A stretch of DNA of 64,000 bases, from contig NZ_BNEM01000002.1 of NCBI RefSeq assembly GCF_018327705.1, positions 3,348,001 to 3,412,000 on the forward strand, read 5' to 3'. The translations under genes and the position numbers were made by a program. Under the pieces are notes generated by a model, which worked only from the letters and a program-made list of their open reading frames with translations, was not told where the DNA came from and searched no databases. Of the stretch, positions 40,891 through 51,035 are shown in pieces (position 1 is the stretch's first letter; each line of letters opens with the position of its first letter). The DNA is from Catellatospora sp. TT07R-123. Lineage in GTDB: Bacteria; Actinomycetota; Actinomycetes; Mycobacteriales; Micromonosporaceae.

Positions 40891-40988
40891 CTGTGTCCGG
40901 CATGGACGGTGCACGATGTATCCGGAGCCAGGGCAGGCACGCATTTCCCGATCAAGCAGAAGTCCGTTATGGATGGAGCACACCCGAA

Positions 40989-42671
40989 ATGCGTTGGAAG
41001 TCCCGTCCGGCTGCCCTCGTGGCCGCCGTCTCGGCCGCGCTCGCCGCAGCGGCCACCGCCCTCGTGGCGGTCACCCTCACCGCAGGCCCGGCCAGTGCCG
41101 ACACCGGCACCGGTTACCTGCACACCAACGGTCGCAACATCGTCGACAGCGCCGGCAAGGTCGTCCGCCTGACCGGTATCAACTGGTTCGGCATGGAGAC
41201 CGACAACAAGACCTTCCACGGGCTGTGGGCCAACGCCCCGGCCACCTGGAAGGGGCAGCTCGACCGGATGGCGTCGCTGGGCTTCAACACCCTGCGCGTG
41301 CCGTACTCCGGTGACGCGCTGAAGGCCGGCGCCGCCGCCACCGGCATCAACGATTTCACCAACCCGGACCTGGTGGGGCTGTCGCCCCTGCAGATCCTGG
41401 ACAAGGTGATCGCGTACGCCGGGACCAAGGGGATGCGCGTCATCCTCGACCGGCACCGGCCGACCGCGGCCGGGCAGACCCCACTGTGGTACACCGCGTC
41501 GGTCTCCGAGGCCAGCATGATCGCCGACTGGCAGTCGCTGGCCGCGCGGTACGCCGGCAACCCGACGGTGATCGGGGCCGACCTGTTCAACGAGCCGCAC
41601 GCCGAGGGCACCGACCCGGCCGCGACCGGCGCCTGCTGGGGCTGCGACGTGCAGGCCCGCGACTGGCGCCTGGCGGCCGAGCGCATCGGCAACGCGATCC
41701 TCCAGACGAACGCGAACTGGCTGATCTTCGTCGAGGGCGTGAGCTGCCTGTCCGGCGGCGTGGCCAACGTCTGGGACAACATCCCGGACGACCCGATGGC
41801 CTGCGACTGGTGGGGCGGCAACCTGTCCGCCGCGATCGACAAGCCGGTCCGGCTCAACGTCGCCAACCGCCTGGTCTACTCGCCGCACGAGTACGGCATC
41901 TCGGTCTACGACCGGCAGTCCTGGTTCAACGACCCGAACTTCCCGAACAACCTGCCGGCCGTCTGGGACGCCTTCTGGGGCAAGATCGCCAAGCAGAACG
42001 TGGCCCCGATCATGATCGGCGAGTTCGGCAGCACGCTGGCCAACCCGCTCGACGTGCAGTGGCTGACCAAGCTGATGGGCTACATCGGCGACAACGGGCT
42101 GTCGTTCACGTACTGGTCGTGGAACCCCAACTCGGGTGACACCGGGGGTATCGCACTCGACGACTGGTACTCGATCAACACCCAGAAGTACAACATCCTC
42201 CAGCCGTACCTGAACCCGCCGTCGGGCAACCCGTCGCCGCAGCCGTCGTCGGCCAGCCCGTCGCCGTCCCGGTCGGCGTCGCCGTCGCCCTCGCCGTCGC
42301 GGTCGGCATCCCCGTCGCCCTCGCCGTCGCGGTCGGCGTCGCCGTCGCCCAGCGGCAGCGGCGGCTGCACCAAGGTCGTGACCATCACGAACGCGTGGGA
42401 CGGCGGCTACCAGGCCGAGGTGAAGGTGACCAACACCAGCACCAGCGCGGTCAACCCGTGGGCGGTCACCTGGACGGTGCCCAGCGGAGTGAGCCTCACC
42501 AACGGCTGGAACGCCACGGTGACCCAGAGCGGCACCACCATCACGGCCGCCGCGCCGAGCTGGAGCCTGTCGCTGGCGCCGGGTGCCAGCGTGGCCATCG
42601 GGTACACGGCCACCGGCCCGTCGTCCCCGGCGCCGTCGAACGTCAAGCTCAACGGCGTCACCTGCGCGTGA
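40989..42671 (+). CDS. Secreted endoglucanase, GH5 catalytic domain with C-terminal CBM2
   Basis: 560 residues. Signal peptide about 1-37 (ends GPASA). The GH5 domain, about 40-410, is closely like Acidothermus E1 (subfamily 1): VVRLTGINWFGMET, VILDRHRPTAAGQTPLWYT, the acid/base Glu in DLFNEPHAEG, RLVYSPHEYGISVY, the nucleophile Glu in MIGEFGS, and FTYWSWNPNSGDTGGI. A Ser-Pro-Arg repeat linker covers about 415-460. The CBM2, about 461-560, has Cys at both ends (GCTKVVTITNAWDGGYQAEV, NGWNATVTQSG, VKLNGVTCA). It cuts internal beta-1,4 bonds in cellulose. No CebR-type operator was seen upstream, unlike the CBM2 protease at 21849. Confidence 0.95.
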   Translation: MRWKSRPAALVAAVSAALAAAATALVAVTLTAGPASADTGTGYLHTNGRNIVDSAGKVVRLTGINWFGMETDNKTFHGLWANAPATWKGQLDRMASLGFNTLRVPYSGDALKAGAAATGINDFTNPDLVGLSPLQILDKVIAYAGTKGMRVILDRHRPTAAGQTPLWYTASVSEASMIADWQSLAARYAGNPTVIGADLFNEPHAEGTDPAATGACWGCDVQARDWRLAAERIGNAILQTNANWLIFVEGVSCLSGGVANVWDNIPDDPMACDWWGGNLSAAIDKPVRLNVANRLVYSPHEYGISVYDRQSWFNDPNFPNNLPAVWDAFWGKIAKQNVAPIMIGEFGSTLANPLDVQWLTKLMGYIGDNGLSFTYWSWNPNSGDTGGIALDDWYSINTQKYNILQPYLNPPSGNPSPQPSSASPSPSRSASPSPSPSRSASPSPSPSRSASPSPSGSGGCTKVVTITNAWDGGYQAEVKVTNTSTSAVNPWAVTWTVPSGVSLTNGWNATVTQSGTTITAAAPSWSLSLAPGASVAIGYTATGPSSPAPSNVKLNGVTCA

Positions 42672-43966: not shown

Positions 43967-45355
43967 TTATGGCAGAGGGGCCAAGCCGGACAGTCGCAGC
44001 ATCAGGTCCTTGACCTCCGTGGCGGCGAAGCCGTCCCGGGCCGCCGAGCCGTCCGAGCAGATCAGCAGCGGTCCGTCAGCCGGGTCGTCGGGCAGCCGCC
44101 CGTGTGTGCCGCGCACCGCCGCCGCCCCGGCGTCCAGGCCCACCACCTGCATCAGGTACCGCATGCCCAGCTTCTTGCGCAGCAGGGCCACCCCGGCCCG
44201 CCGCTTGGCCGCGCCCGGCCCGGCCGGGTCGAACAGCAGCTCGGCGGGGTCGTAGCCGGGCTTGCGGTGGATCTCCACGAGCCGGGCGAAGTCGGGGGCG
44301 CGGGCGTCGTCGAGCCAGTAGTAGTACGTGAACCAGGCGTCGGGCTCGGCGACCAGGACGAGTTCCCCGGCGCGCGGATGGTCCAGGCCGTGCGCCGCCT
44401 TGCCCGGCCCGTCGAGCACCTGCCCGACGCCGGGCACCGCCGCGCAGACCTTGCCGACCAGCGGCAGGTCGGCGGGGTCGCGGACGTACATGTGGGCGAG
44501 CTGGTGGTCGGCGACGGCGAAGGCCCGGGAGGTCCACGGGTCGAGGTACTCCATGCCCGCCTGGGTGTGCACCCGCAGCAGGCCCTCGGCGCGCAGCACG
44601 CGGTTGACGTCGACGGGCCGGGCGGCGGGGGTGATGCCGTACTCGGACAGGGCCAGCACGGTGGCGCCCCGCCGCGCCGCGGCGTCCAGCAGCGGGCCGA
44701 CGACGGTGTCCAGCTCGGCGGCGGCCGCGGCGGCGCGCGGGTCGTCGGGGCCGAAGCGCTGGAGGTCGTAGTCCAGGTGCGGCAGGTAGACCAGGGTCAG
44801 GTCGGGGGTGTACGCCGACATGATCCGCCGGGCCGCCCCGGCGATCCACCGCGACGAGGCGATCCCCGCCCCCGGCCCCCAGAACTGGAACAGCGGGAAC
44901 GTGCCCAGCTCGGCGGTGAGCTCGCGGTGCAGCGAGGGCGGGTCGGTGTAGCAGTCGGGCTCCTTGCGGCCGTCGGCGCGGTAGACCGGCCTCGGCGTGA
45001 CGGTCCAGTCGACGTCGGCGCCCATGGCGTACCACCAGCACACGTTGGCGACCGTGTAGCCGGGGTGGACCAGGCGCGCGGCGTCCCACACCTTCTGCCC
45101 GCCGACCAGCGCGTGGTGCTGCCGCCACAGCAGCACCTCGCCGAGGTCGCGGAAGTACCAGCCGTTGCCGACGATGCCGTGCACCGACGGCGGGGCCCCG
45201 GTGAGCAGCGTCGCCTGCACCGAGCAGGTGACCGCGGGCAGCACCGGGTCCAGCCGGGCGGCGAACCCGGTCCGGGCCAGCGCGCTCAGCCGGGGCATGT
45301 GCGGCAGCAGGCGCGGGGTCAGCCCCACGGTGTTCAGCACCACCAGCGGCGTCAC
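43967..45355 (-). CDS. eboF: EboF-like alkaline-phosphatase-superfamily phosphodiesterase
   Basis: 462 residues from a GTG at 45355 that overlaps the eboE stop (GTGA). Type I phosphodiesterase/nucleotide pyrophosphatase fold. The N-terminal metal Asp has been replaced by Asn (VVLNTVGLTPRLLPHMPRL), the nucleophile Thr/Ser lies in LPAVTCSVQATLLTGAPPSVHGIVGNGWY, and further metal residues are in YLPHLDYDLQRFGPDDP, LSEYGITP and ADHQLAHMY. It should hydrolyse a phosphate ester or anhydride. Last gene of the six-gene ebo-type operon; in related operons it always accompanies the UbiA prenyltransferase. Substrate unknown. Confidence 0.85.
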   Translation of the reverse strand: MTPLVVLNTVGLTPRLLPHMPRLSALARTGFAARLDPVLPAVTCSVQATLLTGAPPSVHGIVGNGWYFRDLGEVLLWRQHHALVGGQKVWDAARLVHPGYTVANVCWWYAMGADVDWTVTPRPVYRADGRKEPDCYTDPPSLHRELTAELGTFPLFQFWGPGAGIASSRWIAGAARRIMSAYTPDLTLVYLPHLDYDLQRFGPDDPRAAAAAAELDTVVGPLLDAAARRGATVLALSEYGITPAARPVDVNRVLRAEGLLRVHTQAGMEYLDPWTSRAFAVADHQLAHMYVRDPADLPLVGKVCAAVPGVGQVLDGPGKAAHGLDHPRAGELVLVAEPDAWFTYYYWLDDARAPDFARLVEIHRKPGYDPAELLFDPAGPGAAKRRAGVALLRKKLGMRYLMQVVGLDAGAAAVRGTHGRLPDDPADGPLLICSDGSAARDGFAATEVKDLMLRLSGLAPLP

Positions 45356-46629
45356 CGGGCCCACGGCGCGCCTCCGGCGATGAAGCGGGCCGGGGCGGGC
45401 TCGCCCGGGACGGTGTCGGTCAGGCCCAGCCCGCGCAGCTCGTCGCGGGCGAACGCCAGCTCGGCGGCGATGCCCGCGGCCAGCTGCTCCGGGGTGTCCG
45501 GGCGCTGGCCGGGCGGCAGCACGCTCCAGGTGTACGTCTCGACGTCCACGTGGTCGCAGGACATGGTCGGGCCGCCGTACAGCTCGCGCAGCGCGGTGCG
45601 CAGCACGGGCAGGGTCGAGGCCAGCGGCGGCGCGGGTTCGGTGTGCAGCGGCACGTGGAAGTGCACCCGCCAGCCCTTCCCGTCCGGCGGGGCCGGGTGG
45701 CCGCGCCCGGCCCGGGGCAGGCCCCGGTCGGTGCCCGCGCCCACGGCGGCCGGGGCGCGCAGCAGGTGGTCGAGGGCCTCGGGCAGGTCGTCGGCGGCCT
45801 CGCCGCGGGCACCCCGGGTCTGGTGCAGGAACTTCGGCTCGGCGTACCCCCGCAGCACCGACGCGGCCGCGACCGGGTCCTCGGCCGCGAGCGCCGCCGA
45901 GACCTGCACCTTGACCACCGGCAGCCCGGCGCGGGCCAGCCGGGCCAGCGCCGCGGCGGGCTCCTCCCAGGCGCAGGCCAGGTGGGCCAGGTCGAGGCAG
46001 ACGCCGAGCCAGTCGCCGTCCATGCCCGACCACAGCCGGGCCGCCTGGTAGGTGTTCTCGACCACGCAGCCGGGCTCGGGCTCGAACCCGACCTGCACGG
46101 TGCGGCCGGTACGCCCGGCGATCTCGGCCAGCCCGTCGGCCAGCTCCGCCAGCGCCCGGTCCACCGCCCCGGCCCGCTCCGGGTTCCACGGCTCGCGCCA
46201 GGCCACCGGCAGGGTGGAGATCGAGCCGCGCGCCGCGTCGTCGGGCAGCAGGTCGGCCAGCACCCGGGCCAGGTCCAGGGTGTAACTGAGCCGCTCCCGG
46301 GTGGTCCAGTCCGGGTGGTAGACGTCGTGCTTGACCACGTCGGCGTGGAACGCCTGGTACGGGAACCCGTTGAGCGTCACCACCTCCAGCCCGCGCGCGT
46401 CCAGTTCGGCGCGCAGCCGGCGGCGCAGCACCGGCTCGTGGGCCAGCGCGGCGGCGACCGGCGCGGCCAGCCACAGCCCCAGCCCGAGCACGTCGGCGTC
46501 CAGCTTCTTGCGCACCGCCAGCCCGTACGTGTCCAGCTGCGCCACGATGCCGTCGAGGTCCTCGGCCGGGTGCACGTTGGTGCAGTAGCTCAGGTGCACC
46601 GTCTGCCCGTCGCGATGGGCCAGCCGCAT
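45352..46629 (-). CDS. eboE: EboE-like TIM-barrel protein (xylose-isomerase-like)
   Basis: 425 residues. Starts MRLAHRDGQTVHLSYCTNVHPAEDLDGI, the hallmark of the EboE family, and continues with a sugar-phosphate isomerase/endonuclease IV-type barrel: LNGFPYQAFHADVVKHDVYHPDW, QVGFEPEPGCVVEN with a metal Glu, WLGVCLDLAHLACAWEEP with a metal Asp/His pair, and WRVHFHVPLHTEP, FHVPLH being diagnostic. Metal-dependent isomerase or lyase activity is expected. It shares one base with the end of eboB and overlaps eboF by 4 bases. Confidence 0.9.
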   Translation of the reverse strand: MRLAHRDGQTVHLSYCTNVHPAEDLDGIVAQLDTYGLAVRKKLDADVLGLGLWLAAPVAAALAHEPVLRRRLRAELDARGLEVVTLNGFPYQAFHADVVKHDVYHPDWTTRERLSYTLDLARVLADLLPDDAARGSISTLPVAWREPWNPERAGAVDRALAELADGLAEIAGRTGRTVQVGFEPEPGCVVENTYQAARLWSGMDGDWLGVCLDLAHLACAWEEPAAALARLARAGLPVVKVQVSAALAAEDPVAAASVLRGYAEPKFLHQTRGARGEAADDLPEALDHLLRAPAAVGAGTDRGLPRAGRGHPAPPDGKGWRVHFHVPLHTEPAPPLASTLPVLRTALRELYGGPTMSCDHVDVETYTWSVLPPGQRPDTPEQLAAGIAAELAFARDELRGLGLTDTVPGEPAPARFIAGGAPWAR

Positions 46630-47477
46630 CAGGCACCCCCGCGCATGATCGAGTTGCCCGCGTACGTCGCCTGCCCGGCGACGGTGTCGAGGTCCAGCCG
46701 CCCGGACCGGCCGTAGAACTCGACCGGGTTGCGCCACAGCACCCGGTCCACGTCGTCCTCGCCGAACCCGGCCGCGCGCATCGCCTCGCCGGTCCGCGCG
46801 GTGAGCAGCGGATCGGAGCGGCCCCAGTCGGCGGCGGAGTTGACCAGCATCCGCTCGGTGCCGTACTCGCGCAGGATCGCGACCATCCGCTCCGGCGACA
46901 TCTTCGTGTCCGGGTAGATCGAGAAGCCCAGCCAGCAGCCGGTGTCGCGGACCAGCCCCACGGTCACCTCGTTCAGGTGGTCGACGGCCACCGCGCCCGG
47001 GTCGAGGCCGGACTCGGCGACCACGGCCAGGCTGCGCCGGGTGCCGGTGACCTTGTCCCGGTGCGGGGTGTGCACCAGCGCGGGCAGGCCGTGCTCCAGG
47101 GCCAGCGCGAGCTGGGCGGCGAACGCCTCGTCCTCGGCGGGGGTCATCGCGTCGTACCCGATCTCGCCGACCGCGACCACGCCGTCCTTGTCCAGGTAGC
47201 GCGGCACCAGGTCCAGCACCTCGCGGCAGCGCGGGTCGTTGGCCTCCTTCGGGTTCAGCGCGATCGTGGCGTAGTGCCGGATGCCGAACTGCCCGGCCCG
47301 GAACGGCTCCCAGCCGATCAGGCCGTCGAAGTAGTCGGTGAACGAGCCCGCGCTGGTACGCGGCTGGCCCAGCCAGAACGCGGGCTCCACCACGGCCCGC
47401 ACCCCGGCCGCGGCCATCCGCTCGTAGTCGTCGGTGGTGCGGGAGGTCATGTGCACGTGCGGGTCGAAGATGCGCAT
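46629..47477 (-). CDS. eboB: EboB-like TatD-family metal-dependent hydrolase
   Basis: 282 residues. TatD/amidohydrolase barrel: FDPHVHMTSRTTDDYERMAAAGVRAVVEPAFWLGQPRT (metal His pair at the N-terminus), GEIGYDAMTPAEDEAFAAQLALA (metal Glu), HTPHRDKVTGTRRSL, and VNSAADWGRSDPLLTARTGEAM (metal Asp). The sequence FWLGQPRTSAGSFTDYFDGLIGWE separates the ebo group from DNase TatD. In ebo operons its substrate is unknown. The start shares one base with the previous stop, and the stop shares one base with the eboE start. Confidence 0.9.
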   Translation of the reverse strand: MRIFDPHVHMTSRTTDDYERMAAAGVRAVVEPAFWLGQPRTSAGSFTDYFDGLIGWEPFRAGQFGIRHYATIALNPKEANDPRCREVLDLVPRYLDKDGVVAVGEIGYDAMTPAEDEAFAAQLALALEHGLPALVHTPHRDKVTGTRRSLAVVAESGLDPGAVAVDHLNEVTVGLVRDTGCWLGFSIYPDTKMSPERMVAILREYGTERMLVNSAADWGRSDPLLTARTGEAMRAAGFGEDDVDRVLWRNPVEFYGRSGRLDLDTVAGQATYAGNSIMRGGA

Positions 47478-48988
47478 CAGTTCCCCTTCTCCAGACGTTC
47501 CAGCAGCCGCGCCGCGTCGGCGGGCAGGCTCCGCCCGGCCGCCTGCCGCTCGGCCGACAGGCTGGCCAGCATCGCGGCCAGCTCCCGGTCGGCGCGGCGG
47601 TCCAGGCCGTCCACGGCGGACAGGGCGATGCCCATGAACACGCACTTGAGCACCGCCTGCCGCCACGCGGCGGCGTCCAGGTGCCGGGCGTACGGCCCCA
47701 GCGCCGCCGCCACCAGCCGCGTGTCGTTGGTGCGGATCGCGTCGTGCAGCAGGTCCACCGCGTCGGCGCCGACGGGCAGCAGCGGCAGCGCCCGCAGCAC
47801 CGCCCGGCGCTCGGCGGCGTCGCCGTGCCGATACAGCTCCCGCGCCTGGCGGGCGACCTCCTCGGCGGGCAGCGCCGACAGCAGCAGCGCTCGGGCCGCC
47901 TCGTCGGCGGTCCAGCCGGGCGCGGCGGCCAGCGGCCCGCGCCCGCAACGGCGCCCGGCGGCGGCGAAGAAGCCCTCGATCCGCTCCGGTTCGGCGGCGG
48001 CCCGCGTGAGCGCCCCGCGCAGCCAGGACGCGCCCTCCGCCGGTACGCCGGGCGGGGGGTGCAGCAGTGCGGCCCGCAGCTCGTCCAGGCCGGGCGGGCG
48101 GGCCTCGCGGGCCGGGCGGCGCTGGCCGGGCGGGCCGACCGGCTGCCCGGAGGCGGCCCGCAGGAACGCCAGCGAGCGCGCGGCGACCTCGGGCGCGGCG
48201 TGCGAGTGCCGGGGCAGCTCGACGGCGACCAGCCCCCGGTAGCCCGTCTCGGCCAGCGCGCGCAGCACCGGCGGGAAGTCGATCTCGCCCTGCCCGAACT
48301 CCAGGTGCTCGTGCACCCCGCGCCGCATGTCCTCGATCTGTACGTTCACCAGGTGCGGCCCGGCCTGCCGGACGCACTCGGCCACGTCGTCCGGCTCGTC
48401 GACCCGGCAGTGGCCGACGTCGAGGGTCAGCCCGAACCCGGCCGGGGCGCCCAGCGCCCGGTGCAGCGCCCGCCAGCCCGCCAGGTCGCCGACGAGCATG
48501 CCCGGCTCGGGCTCGAAGCCCACGGGCACCCCGGCCGCCTGGGCGGCCTTGACGACCTGCTCGCAGCCGTCGAGCAGCCGGTCCCAGCCCTGGCGCCGCG
48601 ACACGTGGCCGGGCAGCACCCCCGACCAGCACGACACGGCTTCGGCGCCCAGGTCGGCGGCGATGGCCACGGCCCGGCGCAGGAAGTCCAGCCGCACCTC
48701 GCGGTCGTCGTCCAGCAGCGTCGGCGCGTGCTTGCGGCGCGGGTCGAGCAGGTAGCGGGCCCCGGTCTCGACCACCACCGACAGGCCGAGCGAGCCCAGC
48801 CGGGCGGCGGTCCCCGCGACCCGGCGGGCCAGGCCCGGGGCGTACGGGTCGAGGTGGTGGTGGTCCAGGGTCAGCGCCACTCCGCAGTAGCCGAGCCCGG
48901 CGATCACGTCGAGGGCGTCGGCGAGGCGGTGGCCGGCGAAGCCGTTGGTGCCGTACCCCCAGCGGATACTGCCGGAACGCAGGGTCAT
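47477..48988 (-). CDS. eboA: Fusion of a TIM-barrel sugar-phosphate isomerase with EboA
   Basis: 503 residues in one uninterrupted frame. Residues about 1-278 are an xylose-isomerase-like barrel (IRWGYGTNGFAGHRLADALDVIAGLGYCGVAL, VGFEPEPGMLVGD, LTLDVGHCRVDEPDDV, HLVNVQIEDMRRGVHEHLEFGQGEIDF). About 279-300 are a Pro/Arg-rich joint. About 301-503 are an EboA domain, all helical, with DLLHDAIRTNDTRLVAAALGPYARHLDAAAWRQAVLKCVFMG, the most conserved EboA segment. EboA has no known activity. In many ebo operons EboA is a separate protein; here it is tied to the isomerase. Starts at 48988 overlapping the eboC stop (ATGA). Confidence 0.85.
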   Translation of the reverse strand: MTLRSGSIRWGYGTNGFAGHRLADALDVIAGLGYCGVALTLDHHHLDPYAPGLARRVAGTAARLGSLGLSVVVETGARYLLDPRRKHAPTLLDDDREVRLDFLRRAVAIAADLGAEAVSCWSGVLPGHVSRRQGWDRLLDGCEQVVKAAQAAGVPVGFEPEPGMLVGDLAGWRALHRALGAPAGFGLTLDVGHCRVDEPDDVAECVRQAGPHLVNVQIEDMRRGVHEHLEFGQGEIDFPPVLRALAETGYRGLVAVELPRHSHAAPEVAARSLAFLRAASGQPVGPPGQRRPAREARPPGLDELRAALLHPPPGVPAEGASWLRGALTRAAAEPERIEGFFAAAGRRCGRGPLAAAPGWTADEAARALLLSALPAEEVARQARELYRHGDAAERRAVLRALPLLPVGADAVDLLHDAIRTNDTRLVAAALGPYARHLDAAAWRQAVLKCVFMGIALSAVDGLDRRADRELAAMLASLSAERQAAGRSLPADAARLLERLEKGN

Positions 48989-49905
48989 GTGGGGGAGATC
49001 CTCCGGGCCAGGCGCCGGGCCAGCGGCGCGGCGGCGGTCAGCACCAGCGCGACGAGACTCGCGCCGTGCCGGGCGGTGAGCGCGGCCTGCAACGTGGGCA
49101 GGCCGGTGATGCCCGAGCCGACGGCGGCGCGCACCTGCGGCGCGTCCGGTCGCCGGGCGGCCCGCACCTGCGGGCGGCCGTAGTGGTTGAGGTACAGCCC
49201 GGCCAGCGCGACGGGCAGCAGCGCCCGCCAGCCCTTCGCCTGGTTCGCGCCGGCTGCGGTGGCGGCGACGGCCAGCGTCCCGGCCAGCGTCGCCACCGGC
49301 AGCCGGCGGTCGGCGCCCGCCATCTCCCGCCGCGACAGCGCGGTCACCGTGTAGGTGTGCGCGGCGACCGTCGCGGCCGCGGGCAGGGCCCGGCGGACCG
49401 AGCCGCCGCAGGCACCGAGGAGCACGTCCAGGCCCCGGCAGGCGGCCATCGCGGCCGGCCCCGCGGGACTGTTCTTGGCGACCAGGTCGTACACCCAGAC
49501 CGCCCCGGCCAGCGGCGCCGCCACCGCCACGGCCCGCCTGCCGCCCGCCCACGCGGCCAGGCCCAGCCCGGCCGCGGTCAGCCCGGCGGCCAGGCCCAGC
49601 GCGGTGTTCGGGCTGACCCGGCCGCTCGGGATGGGCCGCTGCGGCCGCTCGACCGCGTCGACCTCCCGGTCGGCCCAGTCGTTGGCGGCCATCCCGGCCA
49701 GGTACAGGCACACCGACGCCGCCGCCAGCCCCGGCGTACGCCGCCCGAGCGTGCCCGAGGTGGCCGCCCCGACCAGCACGTCACCCGGCACCGACAGGGC
49801 GGCGGGCGCCCGGACCAGCTCGGCCAGGTCGCCCAGCGTCGCCCGCCCCGAGCGCGGCGCACCGGACCGGACCGGCCGCCGCGACCCGAGGTCCGACCAG
49901 CTCAC
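48985..49905 (-). CDS. eboC: EboC-like UbiA-superfamily prenyltransferase
   Basis: 306 residues from a GTG at 49905 that overlaps the upstream stop (GTGA). Integral membrane prenyltransferase with about eight helices. The first Asp-rich motif is NDWADREVDAVERPQRPIPSGRVS (N-D-x-x-D-x-x-x-D), which binds prenyl diphosphate through Mg2+. The second motif region is CRGLDVLLGACGG, with fewer acidic residues than classical UbiA. This matches the SCO3242 family found with the other ebo-type genes in Streptomyces. It should attach an isoprenoid chain to a small polar acceptor made by the neighbouring enzymes. Confidence 0.9.
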   Translation of the reverse strand: MSWSDLGSRRPVRSGAPRSGRATLGDLAELVRAPAALSVPGDVLVGAATSGTLGRRTPGLAAASVCLYLAGMAANDWADREVDAVERPQRPIPSGRVSPNTALGLAAGLTAAGLGLAAWAGGRRAVAVAAPLAGAVWVYDLVAKNSPAGPAAMAACRGLDVLLGACGGSVRRALPAAATVAAHTYTVTALSRREMAGADRRLPVATLAGTLAVAATAAGANQAKGWRALLPVALAGLYLNHYGRPQVRAARRPDAPQVRAAVGSGITGLPTLQAALTARHGASLVALVLTAAAPLARRLARRISPT

Positions 49906-51035
49906 GCCAGCCCCGCGACGAACGCGCGCAGGGCCTCGAACTGGCCGCTGAGGTCGTGGCCGACCTCGCCGATCGGGTCCTTGAAGAAGAAGGCGAGCTC
50001 CGGCAGCGGCCCGCTGCGCCTGGCCGCGTGCGCGGCGGCGGTGAGCCGGGCCAGGTCCAGCACCAGCGGTGCGGCCAGCGCCGAGTCGCAGCCGTGCCAG
50101 GTGAACTCCAGCCGCATCGGCGTGCCGAGGAAGCCCTGGAAGGTGACCAGGTCCCAGGCTGCCTTGAAGTCGCCGAGGTCGGCGACGTACTCGATCCGGG
50201 TGTGGCCCTCGGGCTGGTAGCCGAGCGTCTCGGCCAGCACCCGCTGCTTGCTGGCGGCCTTGGCCGCGTTGGCGTCGGGCCGGGCCAGGTTGGCCCCGTC
50301 CCCGCCGCCGAGCAGGTTGGTGCCCGACCAGGACCGCACGTGCAGGTTGCGCTGGGCGAACATCGGCGCGAGCACCGACTTGACCAGGGTCTCCCCCGTC
50401 TTGCCGTCGTGCCCGCCGTAGGGGACCCCGGCCCGCAGCGCCAGCTCGTGCAGCGCGGGCAGCCGCGCCCCGGTCGACGGCGTGAAGTCCACGTACGAGC
50501 ACCCGGCGGCGAACGCCGCGTACGCGTACAGCGAGCTCGGCGGCAGCACCTCGCCGTCGCCGTCCAGCGCCGCGACCAGCGCGTCGGCGTCCGCGTGGGC
50601 GGGATGCGGAGTCGCGGCGGGCTCGGTGGCCGACACGTTGACCACGACCACCCGGTCCAGGCCGTGCCGGTGCCGGAAGTCGGTGAGGTCGGCGGCCGCG
50701 CGGGCGGCGACGACGGCCTGGGTGTCCCCGCGCGGCGCCGGGCGCAGCTCGGACTCGATCGCGGCCAGGTCGGGCTGGAGCGCTCCGACCAGGCGGGCGG
50801 GCAGCACCCCGGCCGCGGCCAGTTCGTCAGCCCGCTTGAGCAGCGGCGTCGACACCTGGTCGTGGCCGCCGAAGACGAGGTCGGACAGGGCGGGCAGCGC
50901 GGGGCTGCACAGCTGCGGCAGCTCGGTGACGCACCCGGTCGGCCCGGCGAGACCCGCTCGCAGCCCGGCCGCCCCGACGATGCTGGTGACGGCCACCGAC
51001 CCCCGCCCGCCGACCAGCCATACACCTGTACGCAT
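49902..51035 (-). CDS. myo-Inositol-1-phosphate synthase-like cyclase (first gene of ebo-type operon)
   Basis: 377 residues from an ATG at 51035 with GGGAG seven bases upstream; an ATG at 51068 would add 11 residues. NAD-dependent cyclase of the inositol-3-phosphate synthase family. The Rossmann N-terminus is GVWLVGGRGSVAVTSIVGAAGL. Also seen: SYVDFTPSTGARLPALHELA, GHDGKTGETLVKSVLAPMF (catalytic Lys region), GTNLLGGGDGANLARPD, and WHGCDSALAAPLVLDL. It makes inositol phosphate, or a related cyclitol phosphate, from a hexose phosphate. Here it occupies the place that the dehydroquinate-synthase-like EboD has in other ebo operons, and no EboD is found. Confidence 0.88.
   Translation of the reverse strand: MRTGVWLVGGRGSVAVTSIVGAAGLRAGLAGPTGCVTELPQLCSPALPALSDLVFGGHDQVSTPLLKRADELAAAGVLPARLVGALQPDLAAIESELRPAPRGDTQAVVAARAAADLTDFRHRHGLDRVVVVNVSATEPAATPHPAHADADALVAALDGDGEVLPPSSLYAYAAFAAGCSYVDFTPSTGARLPALHELALRAGVPYGGHDGKTGETLVKSVLAPMFAQRNLHVRSWSGTNLLGGGDGANLARPDANAAKAASKQRVLAETLGYQPEGHTRIEYVADLGDFKAAWDLVTFQGFLGTPMRLEFTWHGCDSALAAPLVLDLARLTAAAHAARRSGPLPELAFFFKDPIGEVGHDLSGQFEALRAFVAGLA

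Follow-up and report, generated by a model that had tools for sequence, protein, structure and literature searches.

The ebo operon described here, from the actinobacterium Catellatospora sp. TT07R-123, is real and belongs to a known family, and we have not found its form described. Judged by its sequence, the first gene encodes an archaeal-type inositol-phosphate synthase (MIPS) with intact catalytic lysines, and not EboD, the dehydroquinate-synthase-like cyclase of the sugar phosphate cyclase (SPC) superfamily. The operon lies in a stretch of 64,000 nucleotides, hereafter the window (G000:C2:3348001-3412000), of a 9.17 Mb genome in two contigs. Computation over sampled genomes revealed mutual exclusion of MIPS and EboD, repeated swapping between them and an isomerase-like enzyme (XI) that tracks MIPS, alongside the gene content of the operon and its catalytic residues. 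The swap of cyclases is well supported, and because of the exclusion, the repeated swaps and the association of XI with MIPS, a single slot appears to be filled either by EboD or by MIPS plus isomerase. Our preferred reading, in which we have moderate confidence, is that the window holds a MIPS-form ebo operon making a small prenyl-cyclitol lipid, in which MIPS and an XI of type XIf or XIc replace EboD.

An archaeal-type MIPS in the place of EboD

Six minus-strand open reading frames of 377, 306, 503, 282, 425 and 462 amino acids fill positions 51035 to 43967, with neighbouring genes overlapping by 4, 4, 1, 1 and 4 bases in order from MIPS, just as the initial annotation had them. The first (49902..51035, minus strand, 377 amino acids, ATG start) matches both MIPS families of Pfam above cut-offs (PF07994, 157.7 bits; PF01658, 109 bits), and the best PDB match of its family profile is Archaeoglobus fulgidus mIPS (E 7e-111, nearly full length). 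All residues compared with that enzyme are kept: K274, K278, K306 and K367 correspond to K259, K263, K291 and K352 of the window protein, and N255, D225 and D332 to N240, D210 and D317. In the alignments, K278 and K367 are the positions altered in PDB entries 3qvw and 3qvx. The catalytic lysines and the NAD-binding fold that mark an archaeal-type MIPS are both present. A PHROGs search for MIPS gave one weak match.

The operon gene is not the housekeeping Ino1. It scored 37.6 bits against mycothiol_INO1 (TIGR03450; cut-off 638), and the genome has its own mycothiol-type Ino1 as a separate gene (L297; 657 bits), which rules that identity out. No EboD of the SPC superfamily was found by Pfam among the six operon genes, and no EboD-level match was found in the source genome. 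The best EboD-profile match there reached 127 bits, presumably no more than other SPC enzymes such as AroB would give, compared with 367–548 bits for EboD of Planctomycetota, and on this ground we rejected an EboD elsewhere in the genome. We therefore filed the operon as a variant form and not as an ABCDEF operon itself. The initial annotation had recognised the inositol-synthase-like family of this gene; that it stands in the place of EboD, an enzyme of another superfamily, had been missed.

MIPS and EboD exclude and replace one another in Planctomycetota

Planctomycetota hold both forms of the operon, and the cyclase swap can therefore be tested within one phylum. We sampled 119 genomes by phylum, many of them metagenome-assembled, and detected EboB in 97, MIPS in 67, EboD in 27, EboC in 92, XI in 69 and EboE in 78. 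Cut-offs were E 1e-60 for XI and E 1e-25 for EboC, whose profile may catch other UbiA enzymes; per genome, at most the best 15–21 candidates were scored, so that absences are not absolute. All MIPS candidates were scored in six of the nine EboD-only genomes with a listed row (nine of 25 are listed). The 97 EboB genomes divided into 63 with MIPS only, 25 with EboD only, one with both and eight with neither (Fisher p 3e-15). EboB was also associated with the presence of any cyclase (89/8/4/18 across the 119 genomes, p 9e-12), a kind of association that incomplete genomes inflate. In the single genome with both (G614), EboD lies inside the ebo cluster (L244), and the MIPS, on another contig, has a lower score (322 bits) and forms a long branch outside the ebo-linked groups.

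The EboB tree required 13 changes between MIPS and EboD, at least nine of them forced by supported branches in both a quick and a careful reconstruction. The quick tree had 97 rows, its figure of nine referring to the EboD label versus the rest; the careful tree had 85 one-cyclase rows, leaving out the eight ‘neither’ genomes, the ‘both’ genome and three long rows, and was built without a mixture model, with a bootstrap not quite settled. Cyclase labels were more clustered on the EboB tree than shuffled labels, as expected for inherited traits. No EboD-profile match above 193 bits was found in 26 genomes or records that carry either a MIPS-type locus or the remnant of an ebo operon, among them one plasmid record and one decayed operon.

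The absence of eboD from two of three Planctomycetes was left as a possible draft-assembly effect in the available text of PMC5133447. The exclusion pattern rules out such an artefact as the sole cause, and the swap explains eboD's apparent absence from a phylum in which ebo is a common trait, EboB being present in 97 of the 119 sampled genomes. In many Planctomycetota MIPS is unlinked to ebo genes, which is what one would expect if it only supplied ordinary inositol for mycothiol or phosphatidylinositol and its place in the operon were unrelated to ebo chemistry. We consider this very improbable, given the separate Ino1 of the source genome, the exclusion of EboD by MIPS, the position of MIPS at the head of most actinobacterial loci (below) and its linkage to ebo genes in haloarchaea, Gemmatimonadota and others.

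A companion isomerase-like enzyme tracks MIPS

The third gene of the window operon encodes a xylose-isomerase-like enzyme (type XIf) fused to EboA (47477..48988, minus strand, 503 amino acids). Its XIf domain, the companion of MIPS, spans 48152..48967 (minus strand; PF01261 at residues 27–278), with limits taken from a profile built partly from the window sequence. XI was detected in 58 of 63 MIPS-only and 2 of 25 EboD-only Planctomycetota genomes (p 3e-14). Across nine independent tree pairs, XI went with MIPS in 7.2 (quick) or 7.7 (careful) and the opposite way in 0.0 on average (median p 0.016 and 0.008, respectively). This association rules out XI as a random sugar isomerase. EboC and EboE did not differ between cyclase types (p 0.72 and 0.25), and the presence of EboE was rejected as a marker of cyclase type.

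Forty of 86 XI matches were assigned to a type (XIf, XIc or XIb). Both XI of EboD genomes were XIb, in genomes lacking EboE. Among 16 MIPS genomes without EboE, 15 had XIf or XIc, 12 had XIb and 11 had both; in MIPS genomes with EboE, XI was XIf in 8 of 8. At the level of loci, XIc or XIf was present in 45 of 54 MIPS loci (within the stretches examined, the loci not being independent). In 15 EboD-type loci EboE was found 14 times and XIb, XIc or XIf never; in one of them, from Ketogulonicigenium (L050), a different sugar phosphate isomerase is annotated next to EboB. The simplest description is a grammar of two slots, one filled by EboD or by MIPS plus XIf/XIc, the other by EboE or XIb. An exception is the EboD genome G544, with neither EboE nor XI detected. 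The PDB relatives of the XI profile are sugar isomerases and epimerases, including IolI and IolE, and the barrel has Glu, Asp and His residues that do not vary among 14 XI sequences.

Distribution across bacteria and archaea

An EboE match occurred in 14 of 296 sampled Actinomycetota genomes. From these genomes we compared 16 actinobacterial ebo loci, that of the window and 15 others; 14 have the same gene order with MIPS first, and in these the isomerase and EboA are fused or adjoining. The EboC of L028 was detected only with other queries and profiles. Because 14 of 16 loci keep the same genes and order, the arrangement is not due to chance, and the synteny survey suggested in the initial annotation found the ebo genes conserved together in this phylum. 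Two loci have no MIPS in the stretch: L040, with EboC and EboE in pieces and no isomerase part, and L027. The genome of the latter (G128) holds two ebo loci, L027 and L028, and one MIPS match, and the two may share one cyclase. The stretch examined around an ebo-type MIPS of Micromonospora tulbaghiae (L135) held no ebo gene, and a search of that genome gave no match to EboB.

Plasmids gave a second sample, drawn by EboB: 20 of 52 records with an EboB match were examined. Nine were of MIPS type (five Actinomycetota, three haloarchaea, one Gemmatimonadota), nine of EboD type (Alphaproteobacteria, Betaproteobacteria, Cyanobacteriota, Bacteroidota and Deinococcota), none had both cyclases and two had neither, one being a Haladaptatus plasmid without a local MIPS and the other (H52) a distant TatD protein. 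A MIPS-based search of the best 80 of at least 582 relatives, which partly supplied our tables of loci and is not an unbiased sample, added linked clusters in Rokubacteria, Nitrospira, Deltaproteobacteria, Myxococcota, Planctomycetota and one more haloarchaeon; 55 of the 80 loci had none of EboB, C, E and F in the stretch examined, some stretches being short. Some of the labelling profiles drew in part on the very loci to which they were applied. These results place the pathway in haloarchaea.

Among 196 genomes of the phylum of Halorussus (L095), four had strong EboB matches and another 31 a TatD-like relative with a weaker score (E 3e-50 to 1e-41). These weaker relatives perhaps resemble A. 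fulgidus AF_1765 (3guw), which the EboB profile matches best in the PDB. On a plasmid of Streptomyces sp. NBC_00663 (L042), a ScyD/ScyE-family gene directly precedes MIPS and a multicopper oxidase gene follows the operon, an arrangement that recalls ebo beside scytonemin genes; tblastn with the ScyD/ScyE-family gene over the examined loci gave one other match, which was weak.

The remaining operon genes and clues to the chemistry

The second gene (48985..49905, minus strand, 306 amino acids, GTG start) encodes the UbiA prenyltransferase EboC of the SCO3242 family, with an NDxxDxxxD motif from residue 75. It scored 65.9 bits against Pfam UbiA and 386.6 bits against the NCBIfam SCO3242 prenyltransferase (NF045897; cut-off 260); against the curated EboC level (NF035940) it reached 139.7 bits, short of the cut-off of 250. 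The fusion protein matches the xylose-isomerase TIM barrel (122.6 bits) and, in its C-terminal half, EboA (47480..48034, minus strand; NF035938 at residues 362–495, 155.6 bits, cut-off 50). It is followed by EboB, a TatD-like metal-dependent hydrolase (46629..47477, minus strand, 282 amino acids; 45.7 bits), by EboE, a xylose-isomerase-like TIM barrel (45352..46629, minus strand, 425 amino acids; 54.1 bits, and 403.8 bits against NF035939, cut-off 250), and by EboF, which resembles Type I phosphodiesterases / nucleotide pyrophosphatases (43967..45355, minus strand, 462 amino acids, GTG start; 212.9 bits). All the Pfam scores are above cut-offs. EboB and EboF share 57% and 55% identity with their Azospirillum counterparts and qualify as orthologues; the closest relatives of EboF are nucleotide pyrophosphatase and phosphonoacetate hydrolase. 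The ebo identity, the isomerase–EboA fusion and the individual families had thus been read correctly in the initial annotation.

Its statement that every step has a recognisable enzyme class went too far. The predicted structure of EboA is an all-helical solenoid (pLDDT 97.7), and a Foldseek search of the model against the PDB returned 348 matches with E up to 10, none below 0.001. A solenoid of this kind suits a scaffold, and EboA is probably a scaffold or helper. The literature examined gives, in its available text, no natural substrate for any step.

EboC is most similar in the PDB to digeranylgeranylglyceryl-phosphate synthase (6m31; E 9e-25, 90.6 bits), an enzyme that forms an ether on a polyol phosphate; 4-hydroxybenzoate octaprenyltransferase scored only 28.4 bits. 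A polyprenyl synthetase (PF00348) was present in 8 of 33 loci (32 Actinomycetota and one Rokubacteria), counted, like ThuA below, by single-query tblastn on the flanks among loci whose close relatives are not independent. Two of these synthetases were checked in NCBIfam and matched short-chain synthases and the prenyl-synthase cargo family, below cut-offs. The prenylated cyclitol proposed in the initial annotation was already in print as a hypothesis (PMC5133447), and a lipid linkage gains support from the resemblance of EboC to 6m31 and from these prenyl-diphosphate synthases. A ThuA (trehalose utilisation) gene lies beside the operon in 11 of the 33 loci (for example L026:12157-13593, L029, L034, L109 and L128) and is annotated also in a haloarchaeal locus (L051), and Gfo/Idh/MocA oxidoreductases occur in five loci. 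These recurring genes may point to keto-sugar or keto-cyclitol chemistry.

A proposed pathway and its alternatives

We infer the substrates, reaction order, ether bond, product and role as follows. The MIPS-type cyclase would convert a hexose phosphate, by homology glucose 6-phosphate, to a cyclitol phosphate, which the XIf half of the fusion may turn into the intermediate that SPC-type EboD makes in one step elsewhere; the MIPS + XIf/XIc pair and the single EboD would then be occupants of the same slot, mutually replaced many times. EboC would transfer a short prenyl chain onto the cyclitol, most likely as an ether, like digeranylgeranylglyceryl-phosphate synthase, and EboE (or its stand-in XIb), EboB and EboF would remodel the head group and cleave a phosphate bond by hydrolysis, with EboA as a helical scaffold. 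The predicted order is sugar phosphate, ring closure, an isomerase or dehydratase step, prenyl transfer and phosphate-bond hydrolysis. The product would be a short-chain prenyl lipid of a cyclitol, and might help to move metabolites through the membrane, just as the ebo genes of Nostoc help to move the scytonemin precursor.

More broadly, and more tentatively, ebo can be seen as one modular pathway from haloarchaea to Planctomycetota and cyanobacteria, with two interchangeable entries, SPC EboD or MIPS plus a dedicated isomerase-like enzyme, that converge on one cyclitol intermediate prenylated to a small lipid. If one slot is filled by two unrelated cyclases, both must be able to reach the intermediate, and recurrent non-homologous replacement would make it an inositol- or inosose-like ring. 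The one-slot reading narrows the product and makes each form testable by a swap into the other; if the modular picture is true, MIPS + XIf is predicted to be able to replace eboD.

Several observations weigh against this pathway. XI was not detected in 5 of 63 MIPS-only genomes, nor was XIb in 4 of the 16 MIPS genomes that lack EboE. In 17 Planctomycetota EboB stretches chosen regardless of linkage, none had a cyclase within about 19 kb. Of the eight EboB genomes (among 97) with neither cyclase, seven have XI, and EboB is absent from three MIPS genomes and one EboD genome. EboD has an Asp (RPLDFGH) where dehydroquinate synthase has Asn, as in 4p53, which we take to be ValA, a sedoheptulose 7-phosphate cyclase; this Asp fits a C7 rather than a C6 ring. 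MIPS products keep their phosphate. SPC products lose it (PMC5133447, available text), so that a common product needs an extra step, which we tentatively assign to XI. According to the accessible part of PMC9235831, EboC homologues (Ubi-297) farnesylate quinolines on the aromatic ring in vitro and gave no product from phenols or catechols; these data argue for C-prenylation of an aromatic, cyclitols not being mentioned in that part.

The Asp shared with 4p53 is what would be expected if the two forms gave different head groups, EboD a C7 cyclitol from sedoheptulose 7-phosphate and MIPS inositol phosphate from glucose 6-phosphate, with tolerant downstream enzymes prenylating either, so that a swap changes the product and not only the route. 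EboD also groups near sedoheptulose 7-phosphate cyclases (PMC5133447, in its available text), and some MIPS-type loci use XIb in place of EboE. However, EboB and EboC occur with both cyclases, and at least nine switches took place within one phylum, where a changed product would be expected to track lineage or downstream enzymes more closely; we regard different head groups as rather unlikely. The same resemblance to ValA at one position would suit an ebo MIPS that has come to act on a ketose phosphate (sedoheptulose or fructose phosphate), both forms then yielding the same C7 or C5 cyclitol. A homologue with a different product does exist, the five-membered-cyclitol-phosphate synthase (6k96, 90.6 bits), which uses a ketose substrate. 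The profile fits true MIPS far better (374 versus 91 bits) and none of the catalytic residues checked is altered, which makes such a shift distinctly improbable.

The Ubi-297 data bear on a further possibility, that the cyclitol is dehydrated to an aromatic ring and prenylated by EboC on carbon, giving a prenyl-hydroquinone or quinoline-like redox lipid. The farnesylated substrates were quinoline carboxylic acids (PMC9235831), and in the case of BE-40644 a C7 cyclitol, its dehydration and a UbiA enzyme come together (PMC5133447), as far as the available texts go; IolE and IolI of inositol catabolism are among the PDB matches of XI, together with many sugar epimerases and isomerases. Set against this are the failure of Ubi-297 with phenols and catechols (PMC9235831, same part) and the greater closeness of EboC to digeranylgeranylglyceryl-phosphate synthase than to the 4-hydroxybenzoate enzyme, and we think an aromatic product improbable.

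A second operon and the genomic surroundings

About 144 kb from the first, the source genome carries another ebo operon of the MIPS type, likewise complete (L026:4482-11979, G000:C2), which the initial annotation had missed. Its proteins share 59–81% identity with those of the window operon, and the MIPS among them is a very close relative of the Catellatospora tritici MIPS. A polyprenyl synthetase gene stands directly behind EboF, its best NCBIfam match being mycobacterial farnesyl/geranyl diphosphate synthase (199 bits, below cut-off). A solitary EboE-like paralogue on the other contig (L041, G000:C1:3027665-3028051) has 41% identity to the window EboE over 244 residues, and no other ebo genes were found in the 16 kb examined around it.

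The surroundings of the window operon are housekeeping genes. On its low-coordinate side lie genes for an aldo/keto reductase, a cellulase (family 5 with a CBM2 domain, window 40893-42671) and a DUF349 protein, then miaA and dapF; miaB is directly upstream.

Comparison with known ebo systems

We know of no phenotype for a MIPS-type ebo operon. The ebo genes are important for the export of scytonemin, have been linked to resistance to nematodes and occur in an algal plastid. The operon was named in PMC5133447, whose available text proposed a prenylated cyclitol product, reported the isomerase–EboA hybrid of Actinobacteria and described EboD as an SPC-superfamily cyclase with sedoheptulose 7-phosphate as its proposed substrate. 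The operon family and the prenylated-cyclitol idea are therefore published, and the MIPS form is new in that we did not find it described: the word ‘inositol’ is absent from the available texts of PMC5133447 (main text), PMC6282210, PMC9235831 and PMC6092422, and we found no published link of MIPS to ebo, in a search outside which most subscription journals and bioRxiv lay. As far as our literature searches reached, no ebo product has been reported since the naming in 2016.

Like eboABCDEF of Bacteroidota, Cyanobacteria and eustigmatophyte plastids (PMC5133447, available text), the window operon has homologues of EboA, EboB, EboC, EboE and EboF in an operon structure; unlike it, it has MIPS and a second isomerase-like enzyme where the published operon has SPC EboD. 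The same families are found in the ebo genes of Nostoc punctiforme, tied to export of the scytonemin monomer, and in the EDB cluster of Pseudomonas fluorescens, for which loss of resistance to nematode grazing was reported, but EboD is of the SPC type there (PMC6282210, accessible part). The EboC of the window belongs to the same prenyltransferase family as Ubi-297 / EboC of Maribacter, for which farnesylation in vitro was described (PMC9235831, accessible part), and differs in passing the SCO3242 cut-off while falling under that for EboC. The first gene has its best solved match in A. fulgidus mIPS (1u1i, 3qvw and 3qvx), with the catalytic residues kept, although in the five Archaeoglobaceae/Archaeoglobales loci examined MIPS stands without linked ebo genes. 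The closest solved relative of EboC is digeranylgeranylglyceryl-phosphate synthase (6m31), whose acceptor is a prenylated glycerol phosphate.

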